NCBI GenBank assembly: GCA_947505105.1
Contig: CANNKG010000029.1
Location: 1 to 38,977, forward strand
Reading direction: 5' to 3'
Source: Methylococcaceae bacterium
GTDB taxonomy: Bacteria; Pseudomonadota; Gammaproteobacteria; Methylococcales; Methylomonadaceae
Length of the DNA: 38,977 nucleotides
The notes under the pieces were generated by a model that made no database searches, was not told the origin of the DNA, and was given only the letters and a program-made list of their open reading frames with translations. The position numbers and the translations under genes are program-made. How positions within the stretch are numbered: the first letter of the stretch is position 1; each line of letters opens with the position of its first letter. Positions 1,484 to 35,255 of the stretch are shown one piece after another.

Positions 1484-2140
1484 TTAAGCGCTTACCAAGC
1501 GACCATGATCAAGTTTAATAACCCGCTGCCCCATGCGATTGATCAATTCAATATCATGCGTCGCCACTAACACGGTCACGCCCACCTGAGTAAATTGACT
1601 GAACAAGGTCATAATTTCACCGGAAAGTTCAGGATCGAGGTTACCGGTCGGTTCATCGGCTAGAATTAACGCCGGTTTGTTGACTACTGCCCGCGCAATA
1701 CCAACCCGCTGTTGCTCGCCGCCGGATAAGGCTAAGGGATTTTTATGTTCTTTGCCGAGCAGCCCGACCTTATCCAAGGCGGCCCTGACCCGCTTTGAAA
1801 TATCCTGATAACCAAAACCTGCCACAATCATCGGCAAGGCGACATTATCGAACACGGTTCGGTCATGCAGGAGTTTATAATCTTGAAAAATCAGGCCCAT
1901 CTTGCGCCTTAAGTAAGGCACTTGCGAATCTTTGACTTGATTCAAATTGATGCCATCGAACAACACGCGCCCCTGATTGGTTTTTTCAATGAGCGCACTG
2001 AGTTTTAAGACGGTACTTTTCCCGGCGCCGGAATGCCCGGTCAGAAAGGTCATTTCACCGGGCAACAATTCGAAACTGACGTCACTTAGGACCTCACCAC
2101 TGCCTAAATAACGTTTCGTTACGCGCTCAAATTGCAGCAT
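1484..2140 (-). CDS. ftsE: Cell division ATP-binding protein FtsE
   Basis: FtsE is the ATPase of the FtsEX divisome complex. The 218-residue protein has the full ABC set: Walker [10 protein letters not shown] near residue 35, Q-loop IFQDYKLL, signature LSGGEQQR, Walker [11 protein letters not shown] and the H-loop histidine in ATHD. It is a single nucleotide-binding domain with no extension, normal for FtsE. It lies six bases downstream of the ftsY part of the upstream gene and three bases upstream of ftsX, keeping the classical ftsY-ftsE-ftsX order even though ftsY is fused here. Confidence 0.97.
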
Positions 2141-2146
2141 GGGATG

Positions 2147-4123
2147 TTATTCATCTTTCACAAATAAGGCGTCGACAAAATTATGCGCGTCGAAATCCTG
2201 TAAATCATCAATGCTTTCGCCAATTCCGATATAGCGGATCGGTAGGCCGAATTGTTTAGCCAACGCAAACAAAATGCCGCCTTTAGCCGTTCCATCGAGT
2301 TTGGTCAAAACCAATCCGGTTAAGCTTACCGCCTCGTTGAACAAAGCGGTTTGCGAAATCGCATTCTGACCGGTTCCGGCATCAAGGACCAATAATACTT
2401 CATGCGGCGCCGTATCATCGAGTTTGGCCATGATGCGTTTGACTTTTTTCAATTCATCCATCAAATTGGATTTGGTATGCAATCGGCCCGCAGTGTCGGC
2501 GATCAAGACATCCACACCTTTTGCCATCGCCGACTGGATGCCATCATAGATCACCGACGCCGAGTCAGCGCCAGTATGCTGTGCCACCACATGAATTTTG
2601 TTACGCTCGCCCCACACCTGTAATTGCTCGACCGCCGCCGCACGGAAGGTATCGCCCGCCGCCAACATCACACTGTGACCCTGCGCTTGCAGCCGTTTCG
2701 CCATTTTACCGATCGTGGTAGTTTTACCAACACCGTTAATGCCGACCACCAGAATCACATAAGGCTTATCCTGCTTTGGAATTTTGAGTGGTTGGCTGCA
2801 CGGCTCCAACATCTCGAATAATTCTTGCTTAAGACCCGCTAATAAAACTTCGGGGTCATTCAATTGCGGGCGTTCCAGTTTGGCTTTTAATCGGTCGATA
2901 ATAGCGGTGGTCGCATCCATGCCCACGTCCGCCAGAATAAGACTGGTTTCAAGCTCTTCAAGTAAATCAGCACTGGCTTTATTTTGTCCAAAGCCTATCC
3001 CGGCAATGACCTGCCCCAATCCCGAGCGAGTTTTCTTCAACTGAGATTTAAGCCTCAGATAAAGCGATTCTGGTGCAGGCTCTACATAATCGGCTTTCGG
3101 CTCGATCACCTTTTCATATTCAGCTTCGAGCAGCACTTCAGCCAAGTCATGCTCATGTTCGAGATATTCGAAACGACTGAAAAACCGAAGCGCTAGTAGC
3201 GGCAACATTAACAGGCCGACCATTCCCGAATGCGCCATCACCAGCCAAAACGCCAAGCCGGTTTTTTCGGTCAAAATACCGGAAACCGACATTAATACGA
3301 TCAAAATCGCCAAACAAACAAAGGCAATACGAATGGCTGCTATTTGCCGGGTCAATAAACCATATACCACCCACATTATCATTAACCCGGCAGTACCGAT
3401 CGCCAGGATGTGATGCCACATTCTGATCAATAATGGCGCATCAGCGGTCAAAATAGGTACTTGACCATTAATATAAGCCCAAATATCATTGAACAGTTGG
3501 GAAACATTTAGCTTAGTCCACCACAGCGTCGCACAGTCGGCGATTTCAGGACAAGCAAGCCCTGCATTATTGACACTGGTCCAGACCCCGGAAACCAGCA
3601 CAATAAACACTAAGCCGCTGAACAAGGTCGAAAACAACAGCAACAAGATTTGCGGATGTTCTCTAATCCGTCGTGGTCTGGATTGAAGCATCATCCAAAA
3701 TGCGCCCCACACTAGCGCATATCCTAGCCACAAATGCACGACCGTAAGCAATCCTTGCGCATACTCCAGTTCTGCGCTCACCTGCGGGATCGGAAGCAAG
3801 CCCTGCAACTGATTCAATTCAGCACTCATATTGTCCAGTGTCAACTGAAGAGCCAATAGTGCAAGCATCATCACACTCGCCAATAATGCCGGACCATTGA
3901 TGGGTCTATGCCTTAGTGCCAGTATGAATGCAATCAAGACCAGCAAGCCCATTAATGCCAGACTCGCATAATGGACGACCAACCAGGATTGATTCGGATC
4001 GAACAAACTGCTGATAGTAAAACTTTGAATCGCTAACGAGGCATGTAACATTCGCTCGGCTTCACCCGAGATCAATGCCATCGACGCAAACAACACTGTT
4101 AACAATGATATATTTCTGAACAT
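2147..4123 (-). CDS. ftsY: Heme A synthase-like (CtaA/COX15) membrane domain fused to SRP receptor FtsY
   Basis: One uninterrupted frame of about 658 residues (ATG at 4123; an in-frame TTG at 4135 is the alternative). Residues 1-315 form about eight membrane helices with CtaA features: histidines near 51, 130, 237/238 and 298 at the four heme-ligand helix positions, and NNAGLACPEIADC, which matches the second-half cysteine pair of CtaA. The first half has lost its CP-x-x-C pair and the Glu and Arg next to the first His. Residues from about 350 are a complete FtsY NG domain: Walker A GINGVGKTTT near 461, DTAGR near 543, TKLDG near 607. CtaA ends in the cytoplasm, so the topology allows both parts to work. 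No in-frame ATG lies at the junction, but GTG codons there could start a free FtsY. It follows SURF1 and SCO-like genes and precedes ftsE. Confidence 0.88.
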   Translation of the reverse strand: MFRNISLLTVLFASMALISGEAERMLHASLAIQSFTISSLFDPNQSWLVVHYASLALMGLLVLIAFILALRHRPINGPALLASVMMLALLALQLTLDNMSAELNQLQGLLPIPQVSAELEYAQGLLTVVHLWLGYALVWGAFWMMLQSRPRRIREHPQILLLLFSTLFSGLVFIVLVSGVWTSVNNAGLACPEIADCATLWWTKLNVSQLFNDIWAYINGQVPILTADAPLLIRMWHHILAIGTAGLMIMWVVYGLLTRQIAAIRIAFVCLAILIVLMSVSGILTEKTGLAFWLVMAHSGMVGLLMLPLLALRFFSRFEYLEHEHDLAEVLLEAEYEKVIEPKADYVEPAPESLYLRLKSQLKKTRSGLGQVIAGIGFGQNKASADLLEELETSLILADVGMDATTAIIDRLKAKLERPQLNDPEVLLAGLKQELFEMLEPCSQPLKIPKQDKPYVILVVGINGVGKTTTIGKMAKRLQAQGHSVMLAAGDTFRAAAVEQLQVWGERNKIHVVAQHTGADSASVIYDGIQSAMAKGVDVLIADTAGRLHTKSNLMDELKKVKRIMAKLDDTAPHEVLLVLDAGTGQNAISQTALFNEAVSLTGLVLTKLDGTAKGGILFALAKQFGLPIRYIGIGESIDDLQDFDAHNFVDALFVKDE

Positions 4124-4135
4124 GGATAATTCCAA

Positions 4136-7602: not shown

Positions 7603-9225
7603 TTAGATATGTTCGGTTGGAATAATCGTTGGAGGTGTTGTAAAAGAATGATAAGGAGGAGGTGAAGGCAAGGTCCATTCTAAACCATGCTTCGCCGCGT
7701 CTTCCCATACTTCATCCGTTACTTTCTCGCCAGTACCGCCTTTAATCGTATGAATCACGATATACAGGAACAATAACTGGCTAGCGCCAAAAATAAATCC
7801 ACCAATACTTGAAATCATATTCCAGTCCGCAAATTGCACGGCATAATCAGGAATTCTGCGTGGCATACCTGCAAGACCTAAAAAGTGCTGAGGGAAAAAC
7901 AGGATATTAACTGACACTGCAGACAACCAGAAATGTAATTTACCAATTTTTTCGTCATACATGTGTCCAGTCCATTTTGGTAACCAATAATAACCCGCTG
8001 CCATCAAGATGAATACAGAAGCAGGCACCAAAGTGTAATGGAAATGGGCTACGATGAAATAAGTATCATGATATTGGAAATCTAATGGCGCAACCGACAT
8101 CATCAAACCGGTTAAACCGCCCATGGTAAATAAAACTACAAAGGCAATTGAAAACAACATCGGTGTTTCAAAAGTCATCGAACCTTTCCACATGGTAGCA
8201 GTCCAGTTGAACACTTTCACACCGGTTGGAATCGCAATCAACATCGTGGCATACATGAAGTACAATTCGCCTGCCATTGGCAAACCGACAGTAAACATGT
8301 GGTGAGCCCATACGATAAATGAAAGGAACGCAATCGCCGCTGTTGCATAGACCATTGAGCTGTAACCGAATAATGGTTTGCGTGCAAACACCGGAATAAT
8401 GGTCGAAGCCACACCAAAAGTCGGCAGAATCATGACGTATACTTCAGGGTGACCGAAGAACCAGAAGATGTGCTGATATAAAACCGGATCACCGCCACCC
8501 GCTGCATCGAAGAAGCTGGTATCGAAGAAACGGTCCGTCAATAACATCGTTACCGCACCAGCAAATACTGGCATGATCGCAACCAATAAGAAACCCGTGA
8601 TTAACCAAGTCCATACGAACAATGGCATTTTCATTAAGGTCATACCAGGTGCGCGCATGTTAAAAATGGTTGCAATGATGTTGATAGCGCCCATAATTGA
8701 GGAGACCCCCAATAAGTGCACCGAAAATACCGCAAACGGTAACGCTTTTCCGGTTTGCAACACTAAAGGCGGATACAAAGTCCAACCTGATGCCGGAGCA
8801 CCGCCTTCCATAAACAATGTGCTAGCCAGTAACAGAACACCTGCTACCAACATCCAGAAGCTCATGTTGTTCATCCGTGGCAACGCCATATCCGGCGCAC
8901 CAATCATCATTGGAATCATCCAGTTGGCCAAACCAACAAAAGCTGGCATTACGGCCCCGAACACCATTACTAACGCGTGCATGGTGGTCATTGAATTAAA
9001 GAACTGCGGCTCAACAAATTGCATGCCCGGTTCAAATAACTCGGCACGAATCACCATAGCCATGGCTCCGCCTACGAAAAACATGACCAATGCAAACAAT
9101 AGATACAAAGTGCCAATATCTTTATGGTTGGTGGTAATGATCCACCTTAAAATACCCTTAGCTGGGCCATGATCATGATGATCATGTTCGTGATCATGCT
9201 CATGTTCGGCTACGACTGCAGACAT
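7603..9225 (-). CDS. coxA: Cytochrome c oxidase subunit I
   Basis: The catalytic subunit, carrying heme a and the heme a3-CuB centre. The 540 residues give about 12 membrane helices. Seen motifs are MTTMHALVMVFG (low-spin heme His), FWFFGHPEVYVMILP (CuB His and the cross-linked Tyr, with a K-channel glutamate), VWAHHMFTVG (two CuB His), and YFIVAHFHYTL (a3 and a heme ligands). The N-terminus is unusual: EHEHDHEHDHHDHG packs seven histidines into residues 8-19 before the first helix. The start ATG has GAGGT upstream at good spacing. Confidence 0.98.
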   Translation of the reverse strand: MSAVVAEHEHDHEHDHHDHGPAKGILRWIITTNHKDIGTLYLLFALVMFFVGGAMAMVIRAELFEPGMQFVEPQFFNSMTTMHALVMVFGAVMPAFVGLANWMIPMMIGAPDMALPRMNNMSFWMLVAGVLLLASTLFMEGGAPASGWTLYPPLVLQTGKALPFAVFSVHLLGVSSIMGAINIIATIFNMRAPGMTLMKMPLFVWTWLITGFLLVAIMPVFAGAVTMLLTDRFFDTSFFDAAGGGDPVLYQHIFWFFGHPEVYVMILPTFGVASTIIPVFARKPLFGYSSMVYATAAIAFLSFIVWAHHMFTVGLPMAGELYFMYATMLIAIPTGVKVFNWTATMWKGSMTFETPMLFSIAFVVLFTMGGLTGLMMSVAPLDFQYHDTYFIVAHFHYTLVPASVFILMAAGYYWLPKWTGHMYDEKIGKLHFWLSAVSVNILFFPQHFLGLAGMPRRIPDYAVQFADWNMISSIGGFIFGASQLLFLYIVIHTIKGGTGEKVTDEVWEDAAKHGLEWTLPSPPPYHSFTTPPTIIPTEHI

Positions 9226-9292
9226 ATTAATACCTCAAAAAAAAATAAATAAAGATCAGATTAACCGACTTAAACTTTTACAACACTCAGCG

Positions 9293-10795
9293 TTATTTCT
9301 TAGCAAGCAACGGCTGAACATCGGCAGGTTGAATCATATCGCCGACTTTGTTGCCCAACGCGTTACGCGTATAGGTGACAACTGCCGCGAAATCCACTGG
9401 ATTCAACATAGTTCCGAAAGCTGGCATCATCCCTTTACCGTTCGACATTAAAGCCACTTGATTTTTGATATCGCCAGTCACTAATTTGCTGCCGGTAATC
9501 GCAGGGAAAGTCCCCGCCATACCAGCTCCGTCTGCTTGATGGCAAGATGCACAGCTCGCGGCATAAACTTCCTTACCTTTCGCCAGTAACTCATCCTTAG
9601 ACAATTTGGCTTTTACATCAACTTTCGCGGCTTCTTTAGGCGCCTCTGCTGCTTTTGATTCTACAACAGCAGTTCCTCCCTGAAGAGCCTGAATGGCTTT
9701 AGGTTGGATTTCATCACCTTTTTTGTTACCCAATGCATTACGAGTATAGGTAATTACCTGCGCCAACTCGGTCGCATTCAACATTTTGCCGAAAGCCGGC
9801 ATCATGCCTTTACCGTTCAGAATTAAATTAGCCTGAGCATTGATGTCACCATTAACAAGCGCACTACCCGAAATTGCAGGGAATGCTCCAGGAACACCTT
9901 CGCCGCCCGGTAAATGGCAAGAAGAACAGTTTTTGGCATAAACTTCAGCGCCCTTAGCAACTAATTCGTCATGACTTAAATCACTGACATCATTTGCTTT
10001 GGCAAGTTCATCTTTAGTCTTTTTAACCCAAGCGTCGTAATCAGGTTTTTCCATCGCAATTACCACAATCGGCATGAAAGCATGGTCTTTACCGCAAAGC
10101 TCAGTACATTGACCGCGATAAGTGCCTGGTTTGTCAACAGAAGTCCATGCTTCATTTACATATCCAGGAATCGCATCTTTTTTCCAGCCCAAATCAGGAA
10201 CCCACCACGAGTGAATTACATCAGCAGCTGTATATAAGAAGCGAATTTTAGTTTTAACCGGAACCACTAATGGTTTATCAACATTTAATAAATAATGTGG
10301 CACCGAGCGAGGATCGACTCCTGAGCCAACTTGACGGGCTTTGTTACTCGCTTCGTCAAGGCTACTAAAAAAATGAATCCCATTATCAAGATATTCATAC
10401 TCCCATTTCCACTGCCATCCGGTGACTTTGATCGACATTTGGGCTTCTTTGACATCATCAAGCTCTAACATCGCCTTAGTTGCCGGAATCGCCATACCAA
10501 TCAAGATCAGCGTAGGAATGATGGTCCAGATAATTTCTATGGTAGTGTTTTCATGAAACTGTTCTGCGACATGTCCTTTCGATTTCCGATGATGGTAAAT
10601 CGAATAAAACATTACGCCAAATACACCAGCACCAATAAACACACAAATCCATAAAATCAGCATATGCAGATCATAAAGATCATTACTGACTTGTGTAACC
10701 CCTTGCATTAGATTCAGGGCATAATCTGCATGCGCCGAACCCAAGCCAATAGCCATTAGGGTCAGACATGCAATAAGTTGCTTGGTTTTCTTCAC
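9293..10795 (-). CDS. coxB: Cytochrome c oxidase subunit II with two C-terminal cytochrome c domains
   Basis: Subunit II accepts electrons from cytochrome c at its CuA centre. Layout of the 500 residues: signal peptide ending AHA near 23; two membrane helices (about 42-65 and 86-106); CuA domain with H195, C230, E232, C234, H238 and M241; a first cytochrome c domain (C290-S-S-C-H294, distal GKGMMPAFG); an Ala/Lys linker (about 380-400); and a second cytochrome c domain (C415-A-S-C-H419, again GKGMMPAFG). The two c domains are near repeats of each other. It starts with GTG behind a strong GAGGAGG site. It is the first gene of the oxidase operon. Confidence 0.97.
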   Translation of the reverse strand: MKKTKQLIACLTLMAIGLGSAHADYALNLMQGVTQVSNDLYDLHMLILWICVFIGAGVFGVMFYSIYHHRKSKGHVAEQFHENTTIEIIWTIIPTLILIGMAIPATKAMLELDDVKEAQMSIKVTGWQWKWEYEYLDNGIHFFSSLDEASNKARQVGSGVDPRSVPHYLLNVDKPLVVPVKTKIRFLYTAADVIHSWWVPDLGWKKDAIPGYVNEAWTSVDKPGTYRGQCTELCGKDHAFMPIVVIAMEKPDYDAWVKKTKDELAKANDVSDLSHDELVAKGAEVYAKNCSSCHLPGGEGVPGAFPAISGSALVNGDINAQANLILNGKGMMPAFGKMLNATELAQVITYTRNALGNKKGDEIQPKAIQALQGGTAVVESKAAEAPKEAAKVDVKAKLSKDELLAKGKEVYAASCASCHQADGAGMAGTFPAITGSKLVTGDIKNQVALMSNGKGMMPAFGTMLNPVDFAAVVTYTRNALGNKVGDMIQPADVQPLLAKK

Positions 10796-27925: not shown

Positions 27926-28825
27926 TTACTCTACCGTTACCCGACCCTCGTACCCCTCCCCACCCTCATGCACTTGACCAATCATCCTTCCCTGTATATC
28001 AATGGTTTTCGAGGCGACGCGCCAACGAAATCCAAAACCTTTGGGTAATTGAAGATGCAGACTATGGGTGATGTATTCGTTCGGTCTAAAGTTCATAAGC
28101 TCTATTCCGCATTGCACAGGATTTAAAATTCCGTACGGCTTACCTTGATCGTCCAGAATATCCAGACAATATTGGTTATCCAAACCTCGTTTGATCCATT
28201 GAATAAGTTGATAATTTGACTGATAACCAGCTATTGGAGAAGTTCCTCGGCGAGATCCGGTAAACGGAAACGTTTCATCGTGAAGATAGGTTTTAACTTT
28301 TGAGAGTTGCTGGGAGATTCCGATATGGCCGTTTTTAATCTGATCATTTGAAAGCTCGAATTCATAAGCGATTAAAACGGTATTACGGGTGCTCAAACAT
28401 TGGTAGCGAGCATTTTCATAGCCACAGTAAACAGGAACGCTTCTAACACCTTGATTTAGATATAATTGACCTGTAGCAACCAATATGCCGTTTAAGGTTG
28501 CAGGCATTTGGTCAATCAACAAGTTATCCGTAAACAAATTATCGCCTAATCGATGCGTAATCAACCAATGTCCCGTCAATAATTTGATATCGGGACTTTC
28601 TAAAGTATTAGAAACAACTTGAGAGAGTTGCTGAGCAGCTACAATGGTGCTAAAAGTGGTGTTAGTAAACAGTCTGTCCAGAAGATCGGGGCGGTTTGCA
28701 GGTAGTATGAGGTTACTCGACAAATCAACCATTTCTTTCGAAGAATGCTGGCTTAAAAGATACATGCTTAAGATTATTACTGACAAGCTCACACCCACCA
28801 GGATATTTCTGTGATTCATAAACAT
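27926..28825 (-). CDS. Uncharacterised membrane-anchored extracytoplasmic protein
   Basis: I do not recognise this 299-residue protein. It starts with MFMNHRN and one hydrophobic segment (ILVGVSLSVIILSMYLLS), which is a signal anchor or uncleaved signal, followed by a soluble region of mixed helix and strand. Four cysteines (in VYCGYENARYQC, QYCLDI and VQCGIE) could form two disulfides outside the membrane. The C-terminus is Gly/Glu-rich. It is divergent from the AXE1-type esterase and convergent with the PAS kinase. A second ATG two codons in could be the real start. Confidence 0.65.
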   Translation of the reverse strand: MFMNHRNILVGVSLSVIILSMYLLSQHSSKEMVDLSSNLILPANRPDLLDRLFTNTTFSTIVAAQQLSQVVSNTLESPDIKLLTGHWLITHRLGDNLFTDNLLIDQMPATLNGILVATGQLYLNQGVRSVPVYCGYENARYQCLSTRNTVLIAYEFELSNDQIKNGHIGISQQLSKVKTYLHDETFPFTGSRRGTSPIAGYQSNYQLIQWIKRGLDNQYCLDILDDQGKPYGILNPVQCGIELMNFRPNEYITHSLHLQLPKGFGFRWRVASKTIDIQGRMIGQVHEGGEGYEGRVTVE

Positions 28826-28967: not shown

Positions 28968-29948
28968 ATGATAGAACAACCCGATATTCAACTGGATGCC
29001 AGCGCTTATGATTTTGACCCGAGTTACGGCTATTCGCTCTCGCAATTACTTAGCATCGTCCCACCTCGACCGCCAGCAGGCTACCAAGAATTCTGGCACT
29101 CCTGCTATAAAGCAGCTTTAGCTATGCAGCCTCAATTGCAACTTTATCAAGTCGCAACAACCGATGACTGGCGTGTTTTCGAGATCAGCTATATTTCCAC
29201 TGACCAACTCACTATTCGGGGTTGGTTATTATTGCCGACGAGACATGATGTCAAACGCGGCTTTATTGTCAGCCACGGTTATGGTGGACGCACCGCACCG
29301 GATCTCGGTTTGCCGTTCAAAGATGCCGCAATTTTGTTTCCGTGCTGCCGAGGCCTACCGATGAGCACCCAAACAGGGATTGCTTCCGATGCTTATGGTC
29401 ATGTGTTACACGGCATAGAACATAAGGATAGCTATATTTTGAAAGGCTGTATTGAAGATATCTGGCTCGCAGTCAGCGCCCTGCTGAATTTTTTACCTCA
29501 ACTCACAGGACACCTGGGTTATCTCGGCACCAGCTTTGGCGGCGGCATAGGCGCTTTGGCACTAGCCTTTGAACCACGTATTGCCAGGGCGCATCTCAAT
29601 GTGCCTTCGTTTGGTCATCATAGTCTGCGCATGCGCTTGCCAACCTGGGGGAGTGCTCATAGTGTCCAGCAATATTATCTGAAACATAGAAAAGCTACGC
29701 TTAAAGTTCTTAAATTTTATGATGCCGCTATCGCCGCGCAGTTTTTGATCCAACCGACACACTGTGCTTGCGCGTTATTTGATCCTTGCGTTGCCCCCCC
29801 CGGTCAATTTGCAATTTATAACGCCATTCCAGGCCGCAAACAGCTTTATATCCTTCAAGCAGGTCACCACGATTATCCCGAACAAGCGCACCAACAAGCG
29901 GAACTTAACGCTGAATTACAAAGTTTTTTCGCACCGCTCTGCGGTTAG
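28968..29948 (+). CDS. AXE1-family acetyl esterase / alpha-beta hydrolase
   Basis: A 326-residue serine hydrolase resembling the acetyl xylan esterase/cephalosporin C deacetylase family. Visible marks are the RGWLLLP and SHGYGGR (oxyanion side) segments, nucleophile Ser in LGTSFGGG, acidic residue in LFDPCVAPPGQFAIYNAI and His in AGHHDYPEQA. No signal peptide is seen, so it is cytoplasmic. It is convergent with the AlkB-like gene (32 bases apart) and so may belong functionally with the adjoining carbamoyltransferase/HDO/AlkB set, for example by removing acyl groups. That link is inference from position only. Confidence 0.85.
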   Translation: MIEQPDIQLDASAYDFDPSYGYSLSQLLSIVPPRPPAGYQEFWHSCYKAALAMQPQLQLYQVATTDDWRVFEISYISTDQLTIRGWLLLPTRHDVKRGFIVSHGYGGRTAPDLGLPFKDAAILFPCCRGLPMSTQTGIASDAYGHVLHGIEHKDSYILKGCIEDIWLAVSALLNFLPQLTGHLGYLGTSFGGGIGALALAFEPRIARAHLNVPSFGHHSLRMRLPTWGSAHSVQQYYLKHRKATLKVLKFYDAAIAAQFLIQPTHCACALFDPCVAPPGQFAIYNAIPGRKQLYILQAGHHDYPEQAHQQAELNAELQSFFAPLCG

Positions 29949-29980: not shown

Positions 29981-31051
29981 TCAATTACTCGCCTGCTGCA
30001 ACCGAAACTGCTCAAGTTGCTGCAAAGCCATTTGTTGATAAGAGACATTATCCAGTTTCGCCCATAGATTCATTACAAAATAGCCATAGGGCATCAACGG
30101 TCCCTGGTTAGAATATGGAATTTCGTAAAATGGCACACTACCATCTCGATGATGTCCGATATGATGCGAAAGACTGATAAAGCAATATTTGGTAATCCAG
30201 GAGTCGCAGACCCAGCCGTAACTATTACCGAAATCCCCCTCCTGCAAGCCCCAGTGTTGAATATAGTTCACCGCTTCGATAATTCGCACCGCGGCCAGCG
30301 CTTGATATAAAAACACCACCGCAGCAAGCCAGCCAAACCAGTAACCGCCAAGAATGACAATTGCCAGCTCAATTAACGCGCCATGGAGCATCTGATGTTT
30401 CAGGATTCGGAGATTTTTCCAATCCAAACCGTTAATATGCAAGCGTTCAAGTTCAGATTGCCAAACATAGCGGAGATGTCCTGGTGCCACTCGTTGCCAG
30501 TAATGCTGAAAACTTTCGCCCAACCTTGCACCCGCTATGTCGTCGGAACTATTTGGTTCTGCATGGTGACCACGTAGGTGGGTAATCGTAAAGTGCTCAA
30601 AACATAGGGTACACAACAATAACCGCCCGAGACTTTGTAACCAGACCTGAGGACGATGCAATAGTTCGTGCGCAACCACTCCGGCGGTGCTGGAACTAAC
30701 TCCGAGGAGAAACCTGAGTACCAACAAATTGATGACCCCCGTCAACACTGCACTCGTTGAATCCCACGTCATCTGGCTGACATAAACAAACAACAAACCG
30801 ATATTGACAAACTGCAGAAGTGCCAAGATAAACATAAGCCAATGGTACAGGCGATGTGACGTATCATCGTCAACTATTGGCTCCAGTGACTCTGGTTTAA
30901 ATTTCGGCCCCTTCCAGTCGAGCAACAACACAATCCAAAATGGAATAGTCCAGGCCAAAGCAGCTAAGATAGTATGCGGTCCGGTGATTAATAAGCCGAA
31001 ACTTGTTAAAGGAAATATAAAACACGCCAAATGGCTTAATATTATTATCAT
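29981..31051 (-). CDS. AlkB-type membrane diiron hydroxylase (alkane monooxygenase/desaturase superfamily)
   Basis: A 356-residue membrane protein with about six hydrophobic helices and the complete His set of alkane/xylene monooxygenases: H128-E-L-L-H132-R, H158-L-R-G-H162-H163, N262-Y-I-Q-H266-WG and L294-S-H-H-I-G-H-H301. The NYIQHWGL box separates AlkB/XylM-like hydroxylases from ordinary fatty-acid desaturases. Such enzymes need rubredoxin or ferredoxin; none is encoded nearby. The gene starts 65 bases after the tandem HDO gene, probably in the same transcript. The substrate may be an alkyl chain or a lipid, but cannot be read from sequence. Confidence 0.88.
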   Translation of the reverse strand: MIIILSHLACFIFPLTSFGLLITGPHTILAALAWTIPFWIVLLLDWKGPKFKPESLEPIVDDDTSHRLYHWLMFILALLQFVNIGLLFVYVSQMTWDSTSAVLTGVINLLVLRFLLGVSSSTAGVVAHELLHRPQVWLQSLGRLLLCTLCFEHFTITHLRGHHAEPNSSDDIAGARLGESFQHYWQRVAPGHLRYVWQSELERLHINGLDWKNLRILKHQMLHGALIELAIVILGGYWFGWLAAVVFLYQALAAVRIIEAVNYIQHWGLQEGDFGNSYGWVCDSWITKYCFISLSHHIGHHRDGSVPFYEIPYSNQGPLMPYGYFVMNLWAKLDNVSYQQMALQQLEQFRLQQASN

Positions 31052-31116
31052 GAATTAATGCACTACCCCAAAATACCAGAACAACTAAAAGACTCTCGAC
31101 TCATAGCGCATGCACG

Positions 31117-33249
31117 CTAATTGCGTTTTTTTAACCAGTATTGCGTCGCTAACGCCAGCGCAAACCTTAAACTTGCAGTCTCGAGGGATTTATAACCCCA
31201 ATAAACACGCCGCCAGTGCCGCTGCATCTCTTCATTACCATGACCCATCAATACTGCATCCAAATAGCGCTGAATCACTTCTTTAGCAAGTGCCGCATGT
31301 CCCGAGGCAAGATTGTCAATGCTAATGTGTAGGTTGACGATAGCGGGATCAATCCCCCAATAGCGCAACGCCTGAGCCAAGCGCATATAGCTTCGCCCTA
31401 AACCGCTTAATTCAATCGCCATATTCAAGCCCAGCAATTCAGGCAGAAACGCATTCGGAAAGTGAGATATCGCCATCAAATAAATCGGGATATCAAAAGC
31501 GCTGTTCAGGAACCCAGAATGATTGGCAAATTTCCGAGTATGCACCGGCGGTAAATTCAGATCGACACTTTGGAGTAGCTGTGAATAAATAAACGGATGG
31601 TTTTGGTGAAGCATCCCGGCACCCACTTCATCCACATAAATTTTACGCAGCCCTGAGCCAAGCTCCTGAAGCAGAGCGACATTGGGTTGCCGAATATGTT
31701 GCAGCCAGCAGCCATCGGTCAGGATTGTCGGGGCAAACTGTTCGATCCCCCACAGATAAGTTGATTTGGATAATTTCGGTGGCAATTCCAAAGGCTGATG
31801 AGCTGCAACTTCGCGTTGATATAGATGCTGAATGAACTGCTCAAAAACTTCAGGTTGATAGTGCTTAAAGGGTAATTGATGCGTCCAACGCGACCAGCGT
31901 AATATTTGCTCAACGTGTTTTCTGGCGACTGGCAAAATTTCGGGATACAGTTCGCTGTTGACCAGCGTGTGGAACAAAGTTCGATGATCCGGTTTTTTAT
32001 GCAAAGTAGCGGAGGAACAATGGGTCGGTGGCGATTCAGATTCAAGGTTGATCTTTGGCGTTGTTATGCTGGAATCTGCCAAATTTCCCAACCAAGCACG
32101 CAATACTGAAATTTCGTGCACGTCGAACACCCCAAACATTGGCCCGTTAAAATCAAATAACTTCAATAATCGACTGTTTAACGGATTATATTGATCGACC
32201 CAGTGAGATTGCCGTAAAGCTTCCAAAAATGCAGCACTTTCGAATGACGGCTCGTTAAACCAAGCGTCAAGCGATTTCCCGGCCAGTTCAATATTATGAT
32301 GATGTCCGAATGCAATCTGCGCTTTTTGAGCGATAATTCGACTTAAGTGTTCCTCGGGCGAAACAATGTTATTCACTTGCCGAGTCAATTCATCAAAACT
32401 CGTTTTAAATTGATGTCGATACAACAGGATACCACTTTGGATACGTCGCCAACACGCTTGCGACTGATCTGCAAACTGGTCCAGATAATGCTGAATCAGG
32501 CTCTCAAACTCGGAAAGTTCAGCCGAGAGCATTCGCCGACGAATGACTGAAAAATCAAGGTCGCCCACATAATCATCAGGCACCTGCCATAAATCCGCCT
32601 GACAATACGCCCAAGTAAAGCCCAATAATTCCGGAAAAAATACCCGTGGAAATTGCGCCAACGACAATTGAAGCGCGGCAAATTCAAACATGCTCTCAGG
32701 TATTGCAGGAGATGCCGAGTAAGCGAGACTATGAACGGCAGGCAATCGAATTCCCTCGAGTAAAAGTGCAGCATCATAATGCTCTCGAACCGTGTGTTCA
32801 ATAAATCTCAAATGGATCGCCATCAAAGCAATCGCCAAAGGTTCCTGACTGGTAGCCGCTTGAGAAACCGCGGGCAACCAACAAGCATCGGTCAACATCA
32901 GCGGTGAAATTCCCGTCAACCAACAACATCGTTGCGCTTTATCCAAAGTCGGCGCCACATAGAGTAAAGAAACTTTCTGAAGTTGCGCACTGAAATCGCC
33001 GAGCTGAAACGTGTCGATAAATTGATCGGCATACAATTCAGAAATAGACTGCAGACGGCGCTGCAAAAACCAATAGACTTCGGCCAGCGTTGCGGGATTT
33101 TCATGAATGTGCATTAAACGATAAAACAGTCGACGAGGCTTAAACGGCGCAGTTTGCGCTTTCGCGCACAGAGCCTCAGAAAATTCCGGTTTGAGCTTTG
33201 GGTCAAAAGGATGCGCTAGGTCAAACATTGAAAGGTTTTTGAATGACAT
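31117..33249 (-). CDS. Tandem heme-oxygenase-like diiron oxidase (iron-containing redox enzyme family)
   Basis: A 710-residue protein made of two related halves. Both share LTD-A/G-CWL (120-125 and 511-516), PELLG (206-210 and 603-607) and a WRR helix (267-269 and 679-681). The C-terminal half has a full HDO iron set: E541, H551 (E-x9-H), E604, then H641-x3-D645-x5-H651. The N-terminal half keeps only E207; the other positions are Val, Arg, Ile or Leu. It is therefore probably one active domain plus a structural pseudo-domain. HDO enzymes perform N-oxygenation, desaturation or C-C cleavage. The ATG at 33249 overlaps the carbamoyltransferase gene by 29 bases; an ATG at 33228 is an alternative. 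Confidence 0.85.
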   Translation of the reverse strand: MSFKNLSMFDLAHPFDPKLKPEFSEALCAKAQTAPFKPRRLFYRLMHIHENPATLAEVYWFLQRRLQSISELYADQFIDTFQLGDFSAQLQKVSLLYVAPTLDKAQRCCWLTGISPLMLTDACWLPAVSQAATSQEPLAIALMAIHLRFIEHTVREHYDAALLLEGIRLPAVHSLAYSASPAIPESMFEFAALQLSLAQFPRVFFPELLGFTWAYCQADLWQVPDDYVGDLDFSVIRRRMLSAELSEFESLIQHYLDQFADQSQACWRRIQSGILLYRHQFKTSFDELTRQVNNIVSPEEHLSRIIAQKAQIAFGHHHNIELAGKSLDAWFNEPSFESAAFLEALRQSHWVDQYNPLNSRLLKLFDFNGPMFGVFDVHEISVLRAWLGNLADSSITTPKINLESESPPTHCSSATLHKKPDHRTLFHTLVNSELYPEILPVARKHVEQILRWSRWTHQLPFKHYQPEVFEQFIQHLYQREVAAHQPLELPPKLSKSTYLWGIEQFAPTILTDGCWLQHIRQPNVALLQELGSGLRKIYVDEVGAGMLHQNHPFIYSQLLQSVDLNLPPVHTRKFANHSGFLNSAFDIPIYLMAISHFPNAFLPELLGLNMAIELSGLGRSYMRLAQALRYWGIDPAIVNLHISIDNLASGHAALAKEVIQRYLDAVLMGHGNEEMQRHWRRVYWGYKSLETASLRFALALATQYWLKKRN

Positions 33250-34972
33250 AATCGTTAATCACCAATACGTCCAAGCCGCAGGTCAGAAAGACCGCAAGTG
33301 CATCCTCCAAGGAATGCACCAATGGTTTCCCCATCACGTTGAAACTTGTATTCAACAATACCGGCACATCGGTTAAGGTATGAAAGCTCTGCAACAGACT
33401 GTAAAATTTTGGATTCCAAGCTTGTTTGACCGACTGTACGCGCCCCGTTCCATCGACATGACAGACCGCCGCAATTTTCGAACGCATCGCTTCTCGAATG
33501 ACCAGGGTTTTATCCATATATGGCGATTCCTGATAATTTTCAAAATAAACATCGCCGAATTCATGCAAAATCGACGGCGCAAACGGGCGAAACATTTCTC
33601 TGAATTTGATATTTTGATTGATCAAGTCCTGAGTCGCCGCTGAACGCGGATCGGCCAAAATCGAACGATTGCCGAGTGCGCGTGGACCATATTCGGCACG
33701 CCCCTGAATCCAGCCCACCAATTTGCCGTCAGCGAGCAATTGCGCAGTAATTTGCGTAACCCGTTCCGGGGCATGCTCAATGATCAGGGCGCGATTAAAT
33801 TTAAGCAGACGCTCTATTGCACGGCCAGAAATTTCCGCACCGAGATACGGCGACAACAGACGCGGCGCCTGCCGTTGTTTCGGATGCGATTGATGCCATG
33901 CCAACCAAGCCGCGCCGAGCGCACAGCCATCATCGGCAGGGGCCGGGGGAATATGTACCTGCTTGAAAGCGGTACGTTCGGTAATTTGACCGTTGAAGGC
34001 AGAATTCAGGGCACAACCACCAGCCAAAGTCAGATAATCGCTTTGGGTCACTTGATACAAGTGATTTAATAATTGACTTAACTTTTCGGCGAAAAAATAT
34101 TGGCCGGTATACGCTAAATCTGCCGAAGCCAAATTATCCTGCGCCGGCGTTTGCTTGAAACGCTCCATCTCATCGAGTGCTTCAAAAAAGGCTTTAGAGG
34201 GATGTTTACACTCGAAACCGGTTACATTGATAATCTTCGAGAATATGGCATACAGTTCGGGATCGAATTGACCATAAGCAGCCAATCCCATCACCTTCCA
34301 TTCTTCACCTTGTAACCAATCAAAACCGCACAGTTCAGTTAGCCTCATATAGAACAGCCCCAGACTGCTCATCCTTAAACCTTTTGCCTCATACACCCTG
34401 CTCAATTCACCCTGCTGATAGCGAAAGAATGCCATTGCGCCTTGCTCACCATAAGAATCGATCACAGCGCAAGCCGCGTCTTCAAACGGACTGCTATAGC
34501 AGGCCATCGCAGCATGAGTCAGGTGGTGATCATAGTCTCTGAAATAAAGTCGGCAGTCAGGATAGTGTTCACGAATAATGCGCACCAAATTAATTCCGGC
34601 ATCTTGCACACGGCTGCGTTGACTTGCCATCATGTGATGCAATTGATAGTTTTCAAGCGGCGCACGCAGACGCTTAATTCCGGTATGGAGCAACCCAGGC
34701 GCCGACAAGAACCCCAATCGGCCGACCACGGTTTCATACCACGGACGTTGTTTCCGCCAGTTAAACGCCAAAGTTATCGAGCTCGGTTCAGGACAATGTT
34801 CAGCTAATAATTTTGCAACATAAAATAATGGATCAGCCGCACAATGCAGCGCCCGCTTGTGTTGCAGATAACGTTCCGTCGCTTCGGCGAACAATACCGC
34901 GCCGGATTCATTCAGAATCGCAATGGCGGGATCGTGGTAAGTGACTGACAAGCCTATAAAGTAGTGATTCAT
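33221..34972 (-). CDS. NodU/CmcH/TobZ-type carbamoyltransferase
   Basis: These enzymes make carbamoyl-AMP from carbamoyl phosphate and ATP and move the carbamoyl group to a hydroxyl (or amine) of a natural product. The 583 residues contain the N-terminal Kae1-like domain with the metal-binding D-H149-H150-L-T-H153-A motif, VIDSYGEQGAMAFFRY, GGCALNSAFNG and PAPADDGCALGAAW. The C-terminal YrdC-like domain has GRAEYGPRALGNRSILADP, FRPFAPS and DGTGRVQSV. Length is normal. It is the first gene of a run with the tandem HDO and AlkB-like genes. An AGG site precedes the ATG. Confidence 0.92.
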   Translation of the reverse strand: MNHYFIGLSVTYHDPAIAILNESGAVLFAEATERYLQHKRALHCAADPLFYVAKLLAEHCPEPSSITLAFNWRKQRPWYETVVGRLGFLSAPGLLHTGIKRLRAPLENYQLHHMMASQRSRVQDAGINLVRIIREHYPDCRLYFRDYDHHLTHAAMACYSSPFEDAACAVIDSYGEQGAMAFFRYQQGELSRVYEAKGLRMSSLGLFYMRLTELCGFDWLQGEEWKVMGLAAYGQFDPELYAIFSKIINVTGFECKHPSKAFFEALDEMERFKQTPAQDNLASADLAYTGQYFFAEKLSQLLNHLYQVTQSDYLTLAGGCALNSAFNGQITERTAFKQVHIPPAPADDGCALGAAWLAWHQSHPKQRQAPRLLSPYLGAEISGRAIERLLKFNRALIIEHAPERVTQITAQLLADGKLVGWIQGRAEYGPRALGNRSILADPRSAATQDLINQNIKFREMFRPFAPSILHEFGDVYFENYQESPYMDKTLVIREAMRSKIAAVCHVDGTGRVQSVKQAWNPKFYSLLQSFHTLTDVPVLLNTSFNVMGKPLVHSLEDALAVFLTCGLDVLVINDYVIQKPFNV

Positions 34973-35015
34973 CGCCTGAACCGAAAAATGGGTATATCTT
35001 TTAAATATATCGCAG

Positions 35016-35040
35016 ATCGACCAGATTCAAAATGGTCGAT
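35016..35040. promoter_or_regulatory. Inverted repeat upstream of the carbamoyltransferase operon
   Basis: ATCGACCA (35016-35023) and TGGTCGAT (35033-35040) are perfect complements around nine bases, about 45-70 bases before the ATG. On the minus strand a weak TTGAAT, 17-base spacer, TATTTA promoter overlaps it, so it may be an operator. Confidence 0.4.
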
Positions 35041-35180
35041 AACAAAAAAGCAGTAGCGCTCTATTGGGAAGCGTCAGGAACAATTGTTTGGCACATAATA
35101 TCGGAAGCGGAACCGCTGAAGATCTGATCCGTGAAGGAAAAAGGTTGAGAGAATTTTGGAGAGGTTTACTGAGAGCTGTG

Positions 35181-35205
35181 TTCCTGGCGATTCAATCGCC
35201 AGGAA
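35181..35205. terminator. Strong 11-pair hairpin downstream of the pbpG-like gene
   Basis: TTCCTGGCGAT (35181-35191) pairs perfectly with ATCGCCAGGAA (35195-35205) around a three-base loop, about 50 bases past the stop of the D-Ala-D-Ala endopeptidase gene. No T-run follows on the minus strand. It may be a terminator or an RNA-stability element. Confidence 0.5.
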
Positions 35206-35255
35206 TAACGAGATCGTTTTTAAAACAAGAGTGAGCCCATAAAATTTTAGACTAA

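Follow-up and report, generated by a model that had tools for sequence, protein, structure and literature searches.

Organisation of the locus

The 38,977-nucleotide contig CANNKG010000029.1 of a Methylococcaceae bacterium (assembly GCA_947505105.1, genome G000 in our sample; the whole contig is hereafter called the window) carries on its minus strand three consecutive genes encoding a carbamoyltransferase (CTF), a tandem haem-oxygenase-like protein (HDO) and an AlkB-type membrane hydroxylase (ALKB). A preliminary description, made from the letters of the window alone, had placed three minus-strand open reading frames here and proposed that they encode one pathway. The frames were confirmed, and all three are uninterrupted. 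The features of the locus are:

33221..34972, minus strand: CTF, NodU/CmcH-type carbamoyltransferase, gene 1 (583 amino acids; Carbam_trans_N and Carbam_trans_C)
31117..33249, minus strand: HDO, tandem haem-oxygenase-like protein, gene 2 (710 amino acids if counted from the first ATG; Met8, at 33228, is the likely start)
32206..33165, minus strand: N-terminal domain of HDO (residues 29-348), which probably lacks a metal site (homology to the C-half; ligand positions mostly changed)
31117..32013, minus strand: HDO C-domain, residues 413-710, likely catalytic (Haem_oxygenas_2; seven invariant ligand-type residues)
29981..31051, minus strand: ALKB, AlkB-type membrane non-haem diiron hydroxylase, gene 3 (356 amino acids; FA_desaturase, nine His)
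34973..35255, minus strand: region of 283 bases in front of CTF, presumed from coordinates and sequence to hold the promoter of the cassette

The 29-base overlap of CTF and HDO given in the preliminary description holds if HDO begins at its first ATG. Since Met8 is invariant in the alignment of 17 relatives, translation more likely starts there, and the overlap then shrinks to 8 bases. HDO and ALKB are separated by 65 bases. Scans of the cassette region found no excess of promoter-like sites (9, against a shuffled expectation of 9.0) or of terminators (2, against 7.2 in shuffles).

Conservation of the three-gene cassette

The three genes have stayed linked despite a rearrangement and show parallel evolution. 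Within the window's family, which we take to be the Methylomonadaceae and which was sampled as 201 genomes of 29 genera, HDO was found in 54 genomes (16 genera) and ALKB (E <= 1e-30) in 53 (17 genera), with both present in 51 (Fisher p = 2e-41, a value that ignores relatedness). Two relatives bear names, 'Candidatus Methylobacter favarea' and, for a metagenome-assembled genome, 'Methylococcaceae bacterium'. Among 55 loci fetched from the family, 43 show CTF, HDO and ALKB in this order and direction, a count that includes three loci with one gene partial (L054, L055, L071). The other 12 comprise five ended by contig edges (L030, L065, L069, L070, L086), three whose CTF lies in another place (L066-L068), one lacking CTF (L076), one decayed locus (L084) and two second copies of HDO (L082, L083). 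The outer neighbours of the cassette differ from genus to genus, and no assembly-line synthase is present among its conserved neighbours, in line with the preliminary description, which had seen no polyketide or peptide synthase. A CDP-alcohol phosphatidyltransferase gene lies downstream in 9 loci. For the 47 loci in which all three proteins fall inside the length limits, the tree distances of CTF, HDO and ALKB correlate at 0.952, 0.958 and 0.965, and in each case none of 999 permutations reached as high a value.

In part of the family the set has a fourth member. Directly upstream of CTF in 16 of the 43 co-directional loci lies a B12-binding radical S-adenosylmethionine (radical-SAM) gene (e.g., L064 12500-14164), whose product carries a Radical_SAM domain, scored below its cut-off, and DUF4070. 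Compared with NCBIfam, this protein matched no named family over its cut-off, with HpnJ, HpnR and others far under. The gene is absent from the window genome.

Linkage extends beyond the window's family. Searched for across the order at E <= 1e-100, CTF gave matches in 72 of 151 genomes, some of them to a second, distant NodU-like protein near 1e-105. In a second family, that of G336, which we take to be the Methylococcaceae and to include Methylococcus, ALKB is present in 33 of 38 genomes and in 30 of the 31 of good quality. Here ALKB is divergent from CTF, less than 400 bp away, in 28 of the 31 genomes having both. Likewise, in 13 of 20 stretches from outside the window's family, chosen by hand and not at random among the matches of the order-wide CTF search and a class-wide HDO search, ALKB is divergent from a CTF-HDO pair, at a distance of about 4 kb in L113; the layout was not seen in the remaining seven (L105, L106, L107, L108, L120, L121, L123). 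Because this second layout keeps the genes together, their linkage has survived a rearrangement. The neighbourhood comparison thus shows the three genes co-occurring, and adjacent in many genera in two layouts, which bears out the earlier proposal of one functional unit and excludes the result, named in advance as fatal to it, that they never co-occur.

In a class-wide sample of 369 genomes, six had a strong tandem HDO match (E < 1e-100) and another two a weak one. The pMMO/AMO family PF02461, whose subunit A gene is carried by the window genome, occurs in 11 of the 369 and in five of the six with a strong tandem HDO (p 5e-8); the sixth, G265, is without it, and 6 of the 11 PF02461 genomes gave no HDO match. 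We take this association as a hint only, since the window genome is among the five by choice and several of the genomes are related.

Two further arrangements were observed among the family loci. In L067 (481-2019), and likewise in L066 and L068, all three with CTF relocated, the gene immediately preceding HDO encodes a protein of some 513 amino acids composed of many S-x-V-x-K-Y-L-like repeats. In L084 (G112:C205), CTF and HDO contain in-frame stops and ALKB is missing; such a decaying cassette is as expected if its genes are lost together.

Predicted activities of the encoded enzymes

Pfam and solved relatives agree with the three enzyme classes assigned in the preliminary description. In CTF, the HDO C-domain and ALKB, the residues predicted to be catalytic are kept, whereas in the HDO N-domain they are not.

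CTF carries both domains of its class, Carbam_trans_N (1.7e-30; 107.1 bits, cut-off 24) and Carbam_trans_C (1.2e-68; 230.4 bits, cut-off 27). Among solved structures, NovN (9s2t, 9e-71) is the nearest to it in sequence, and others are the carbamoyltransferase 7xb6, GdmN (1e-62 to 1e-61) and TobZ (about 1e-57). H149, H153, D172 and D347 are kept in 64 of 64 aligned relatives; this H-x3-H motif with two Asp, which CTF shares with NovN, GdmN and TobZ, presumably corresponds to the metal site of TobZ. CTF is therefore a predicted O-carbamoyltransferase with its putative catalytic residues kept. The acceptors of NovN, GdmN and TobZ are antibiotic sugars or macrocycles, whereas the conserved set around CTF contains no sugar or polyketide gene.

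ALKB matches FA_desaturase (1.1e-23), and its best solved relative is AlkB (8f6t, 1.3e-19, over residues 25-329). Nine His (128, 132, 158, 162, 163, 266, 297, 300 and 301) are present in 45 of 45 sequences and match the 8f6t register where aligned. ALKB thus resembles AlkB alkane 1-monooxygenase in its conserved His, its length class and its membrane nature. It differs in a sequence far from that of solved AlkB and in its linkage to CTF and HDO instead of rubredoxin or alkane genes. Three rubredoxin genes are present in the window genome, none of them within the cassette.

In HDO, Haem_oxygenas_2 is matched (2.9e-13; 50.4 bits, cut-off 28.9) on residues 503-682 only. The first and second halves are homologous to each other (BLAST 4e-12; hhalign probability 100), and the protein is thus rightly called tandem, as it had been in the preliminary description. 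The C-domain contains seven residues (E541, H551, E604, E613, H641, D645, H651) that do not vary among the 71 sequences compared, even the distant ones. We call them metal ligands by analogy; with three His and three or four carboxylates they would suffice for a diiron site of the 3H/3C or 3H/4C kind, the ligand sets named for HDOs in PMC13108848. Their N-domain counterparts in the window are R148, F149, V154, E207, Y227, L231 and E244, the last three assignments falling where the alignment has gaps. The N-domain thus lacks the three-His/three-or-four-carboxylate set that the C-domain possesses. E207 and H317 are conserved in 70 of the 71 sequences, and E207 is the sole ligand position retained in the window, which is why we consider the N-domain probably a metal-free partner of the C-domain.

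A structural model of the C-domain, built on six sequences, has a predicted local-distance difference test score (pLDDT) of 75 and a predicted template-modelling score (pTM) of 0.81. In fold comparison, it comes closest to RohS (Z 18.3), SznF (17.6) and HrmI (17.6), with FlcD (14.3), BesC (11.5) and UndA (10.6) lower; Foldseek likewise returned RohS (4e-5) and SznF (5e-4). Pfam over its cut-off, together with the Foldseek and VIA matches to HDOs, assigns the C-domain to the haem-oxygenase-like fold. A sequence profile made from 19 C-domains retrieves the same proteins, with weak E-values (RohS 0.0026, SznF 0.037, HrmI 0.27). RohS, moreover, shares with the C-domain an E-x9-H motif within a DE-x-G-x-G-x4-H stretch. 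According to PMC10654658 and PMC13108848, RohS, SznF and HrmI are N-oxygenases. Since the nearest solved structures of the ligand-keeping C-domain are thus N-oxygenases, our best guess for its reaction would be oxidation at nitrogen in preference to oxidation in general. The present protein differs from all three in its extra, ligand-poor HDO domain fused N-terminally and in its carbamoyltransferase and AlkB neighbours; unlike SznF, which is described as carrying a C-terminal cupin (PMC13108848), it has a second HDO domain in front. About a dozen members of the superfamily are functionally validated according to the same text (PMC13108848), and a tandem HDO with one active-type and one degenerate domain would be a new architecture in it.

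Second tandem-HDO copies, 31-32% identical to the window HDO, are found in L082 (G009) at 8629-10506 and in L083 (G036) at 1533-3683, without adjoining CTF or ALKB. A scan of viral_contigs found no HDO relatives. A transcriptome of Methylomonas LW13 highlights a heme oxygenase gene (PMC11072679), which could not be tied to this HDO from the accessible part of that report.

CTF-HDO pairs outside the Methylococcales

CTF and tandem HDO also lie close together in records from Agrobacterium vitis, Acinetobacter baumannii and Photobacterium, where the HDO (27-29% identical) and the CTF (31-36%) are adjacent or one gene apart. No ALKB match was found in these three records, and the neighbouring genes are of amino-acid type; some of the records encode a LysE-type exporter, an SGNH-type protein, and an aminotransferase or a SidA-type N-hydroxylase. 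For the second and third of them we named the genes ourselves, guided by the clusters that they share with the first, which is annotated. The pairs therefore resemble the cassette in placing CTF next to or near a tandem HDO and differ from it in their neighbours and the absence of AlkB. In the Acinetobacter baumannii stretch L088 (7917-13651), HDO, LysE-type, CTF and SGNH-type genes stand in a row beside a transposase-like frame. For tandem HDOs carried by Streptomyces and Sinorhizobium plasmids, the 9 kb flanking each side contain no CTF.

The polyoxin cluster, whose carbamoyltransferase is PolO, also combines a carbamoyltransferase with an HDO, and differs in containing many further genes and no AlkB. 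Its HDO, PolF, is reported to form an azetidine amino acid.

Proposed product and alternative explanations

With little more than even confidence, we favour the reading that CTF, HDO and ALKB form a self-standing cassette of Methylococcales methanotrophs whose single product, a small molecule or small lipid, is oxidised and carbamoylated with no assembly-line enzyme involved. Because no activation or condensation enzyme is found among the conserved neighbours, the data suggest a substrate derived from primary or lipid metabolism. In such a pathway, the membrane enzyme ALKB, supplied by a rubredoxin encoded elsewhere in the genome, would hydroxylate a hydrophobic chain or ring, while the diiron centre of the HDO C-domain would N-oxygenate an amine, amide or carbamoyl nitrogen to an N-hydroxy, nitroso or nitro group, with the dead N-domain acting perhaps as a scaffold or lid. 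CTF would activate carbamoyl phosphate with ATP and carbamoylate a hydroxyl, which could be the new alcohol or the N-hydroxy group. In some genera the B12/radical-SAM enzyme may supply a further step, perhaps C-methylation.

Several observations weigh against this reading. In three genomes (G030, G054, G075) CTF is separate from HDO-ALKB, on another contig, where it adjoins the radical-SAM gene while HDO and ALKB remain paired, and in G097 CTF is missing; in the second family, ALKB lies 4 kb from CTF in G575, and the two are on different contigs in G621 and G628. Since the pairs outside the Methylococcales do without AlkB, ALKB may act on another part of the product or at a later stage. On the side of the predicted reaction, the HDO fold also performs C-C cleavage and desaturation, and fold likeness is no proof of N-oxygenation. 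Four of the five versions of the C-domain model scored lower (pLDDT 40-65), model residues 219-237 (protein residues 631-649, which include H641 and D645) fall below a pLDDT of 50, and the full-length HDO model (pLDDT 38.8) is unusable. In the profile search, moreover, SznF (0.037) does not score above an unrelated protein that appears by chance in the same list (0.03).

Among the alternatives, the same cassette could contain an HDO that cleaves C-C bonds or desaturates, as do UndA, BesC and PolF, to yield an olefin or a modified amino acid that AlkB would then hydroxylate and CTF carbamoylate. Characterised HDOs are described, in PMC13108848, as acting mainly on fatty and amino acids and as reaching different outcomes with the same ligand set, and both UndA and BesC appear in the fold list of the C-domain; yet they rank well below the N-oxygenases there (Z 10.6 and 11.5, against 17.6-18.3), and we consider this version unlikely. 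Equally to be weighed is the tailoring of membrane lipids, in which AlkB would hydroxylate a polycyclic or acyl lipid such as a hopanoid side chain, CTF would carbamoylate it and HDO would act on an amine end. The membrane nature of AlkB and the CDP-alcohol phosphatidyltransferase of the 9 loci fit this scheme, as does the capacity of methanotrophs to make amine-bearing bacteriohopanepolyols, including tentative methylcarbamate forms (PMC5100885). A hopanoid substrate is possible in that squalene-hopene cyclase occurs in 199 of the 201 family genomes, although for the same reason, with the cyclase present whether or not the cassette is, its distribution does not discriminate. According to PMC5100885, methylcarbamate bacteriohopanepolyols were not found in Methylococcus capsulatus, yet the second family nearly always has ALKB; nor would an O-carbamoyltransferase make a methylcarbamate group, which is linked through nitrogen and carries a methyl ester. 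On these two grounds we rejected methylcarbamate bacteriohopanepolyols as the product, and lipid tailoring as a whole appears improbable to us.

Two explanations depart further from biosynthesis by a common pathway. HDO could be an oxidative-stress factor within a protective enzyme set, by analogy with DtpC of Acinetobacter baumannii, which protects against desiccation according to PMC13232832; DtpC is a different HDO, though, and such a role would not explain why HDO is so closely tied to a carbamoyltransferase and AlkB, so that we hold this to be very improbable. Shared descent can also maintain short strings of genes, which might then be adjacent by chance or position only. Against this stand the two layouts, the changing outer neighbours, the agreement of the trees and the co-loss, and we give such an explanation almost no credence.

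As a more specific and highly speculative form of the favoured cassette, the product might be a metal-binding amphiphile, in which HDO turns the carbamoyl or a neighbouring nitrogen into N-OH to give an N-hydroxycarbamate or N-hydroxyurea-like chelator with an AlkB-hydroxylated tail. If true, this would be a new kind of copper or iron carrier made without a peptide synthase or ribosomal peptide, for bacteria that need membrane copper monooxygenases. The class-wide association of strong tandem HDO matches with PF02461 is no more than a hint in that direction. More generally, the presence of ALKB in nearly all good-quality genomes of the second family and of HDO in 54 of 201 in the window's points to a product that these methane oxidisers should need, and the three-gene size would permit deletion or expression of the cassette as a whole, making a methanotroph metabolite directly testable. 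We found no description of a CTF, tandem HDO and AlkB set in the open-licence literature, subscription papers being mostly outside the search. The set is real and conserved and each enzyme is of a known kind, while the set itself is apparently undescribed.

Other genes of the window

We also considered a larger cluster and rejected it, as the outer neighbours of the window cassette are not retained beside the cassette in relatives. The genes compared encode a D-Ala carboxypeptidase, a guanylate kinase, a dCTP deaminase, an esterase (28968-29948) and a protein of unknown function (27926-28825); guanylate kinase recurred beside the cassette once, in L045.

Elsewhere in the window, a single uninterrupted minus-strand frame of 662 amino acids (2147-4135) has a COX15/CtaA-like membrane domain at residues 60-311 followed by the signal recognition particle receptor FtsY (383-658), an unusual fusion of a haem-synthase-like domain with FtsY. 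It sits within a run of cytochrome oxidase and ftsE/ftsX-like genes. At 9293-10795, also on the minus strand, a cytochrome oxidase subunit II bears two C-terminal cytochrome c domains.

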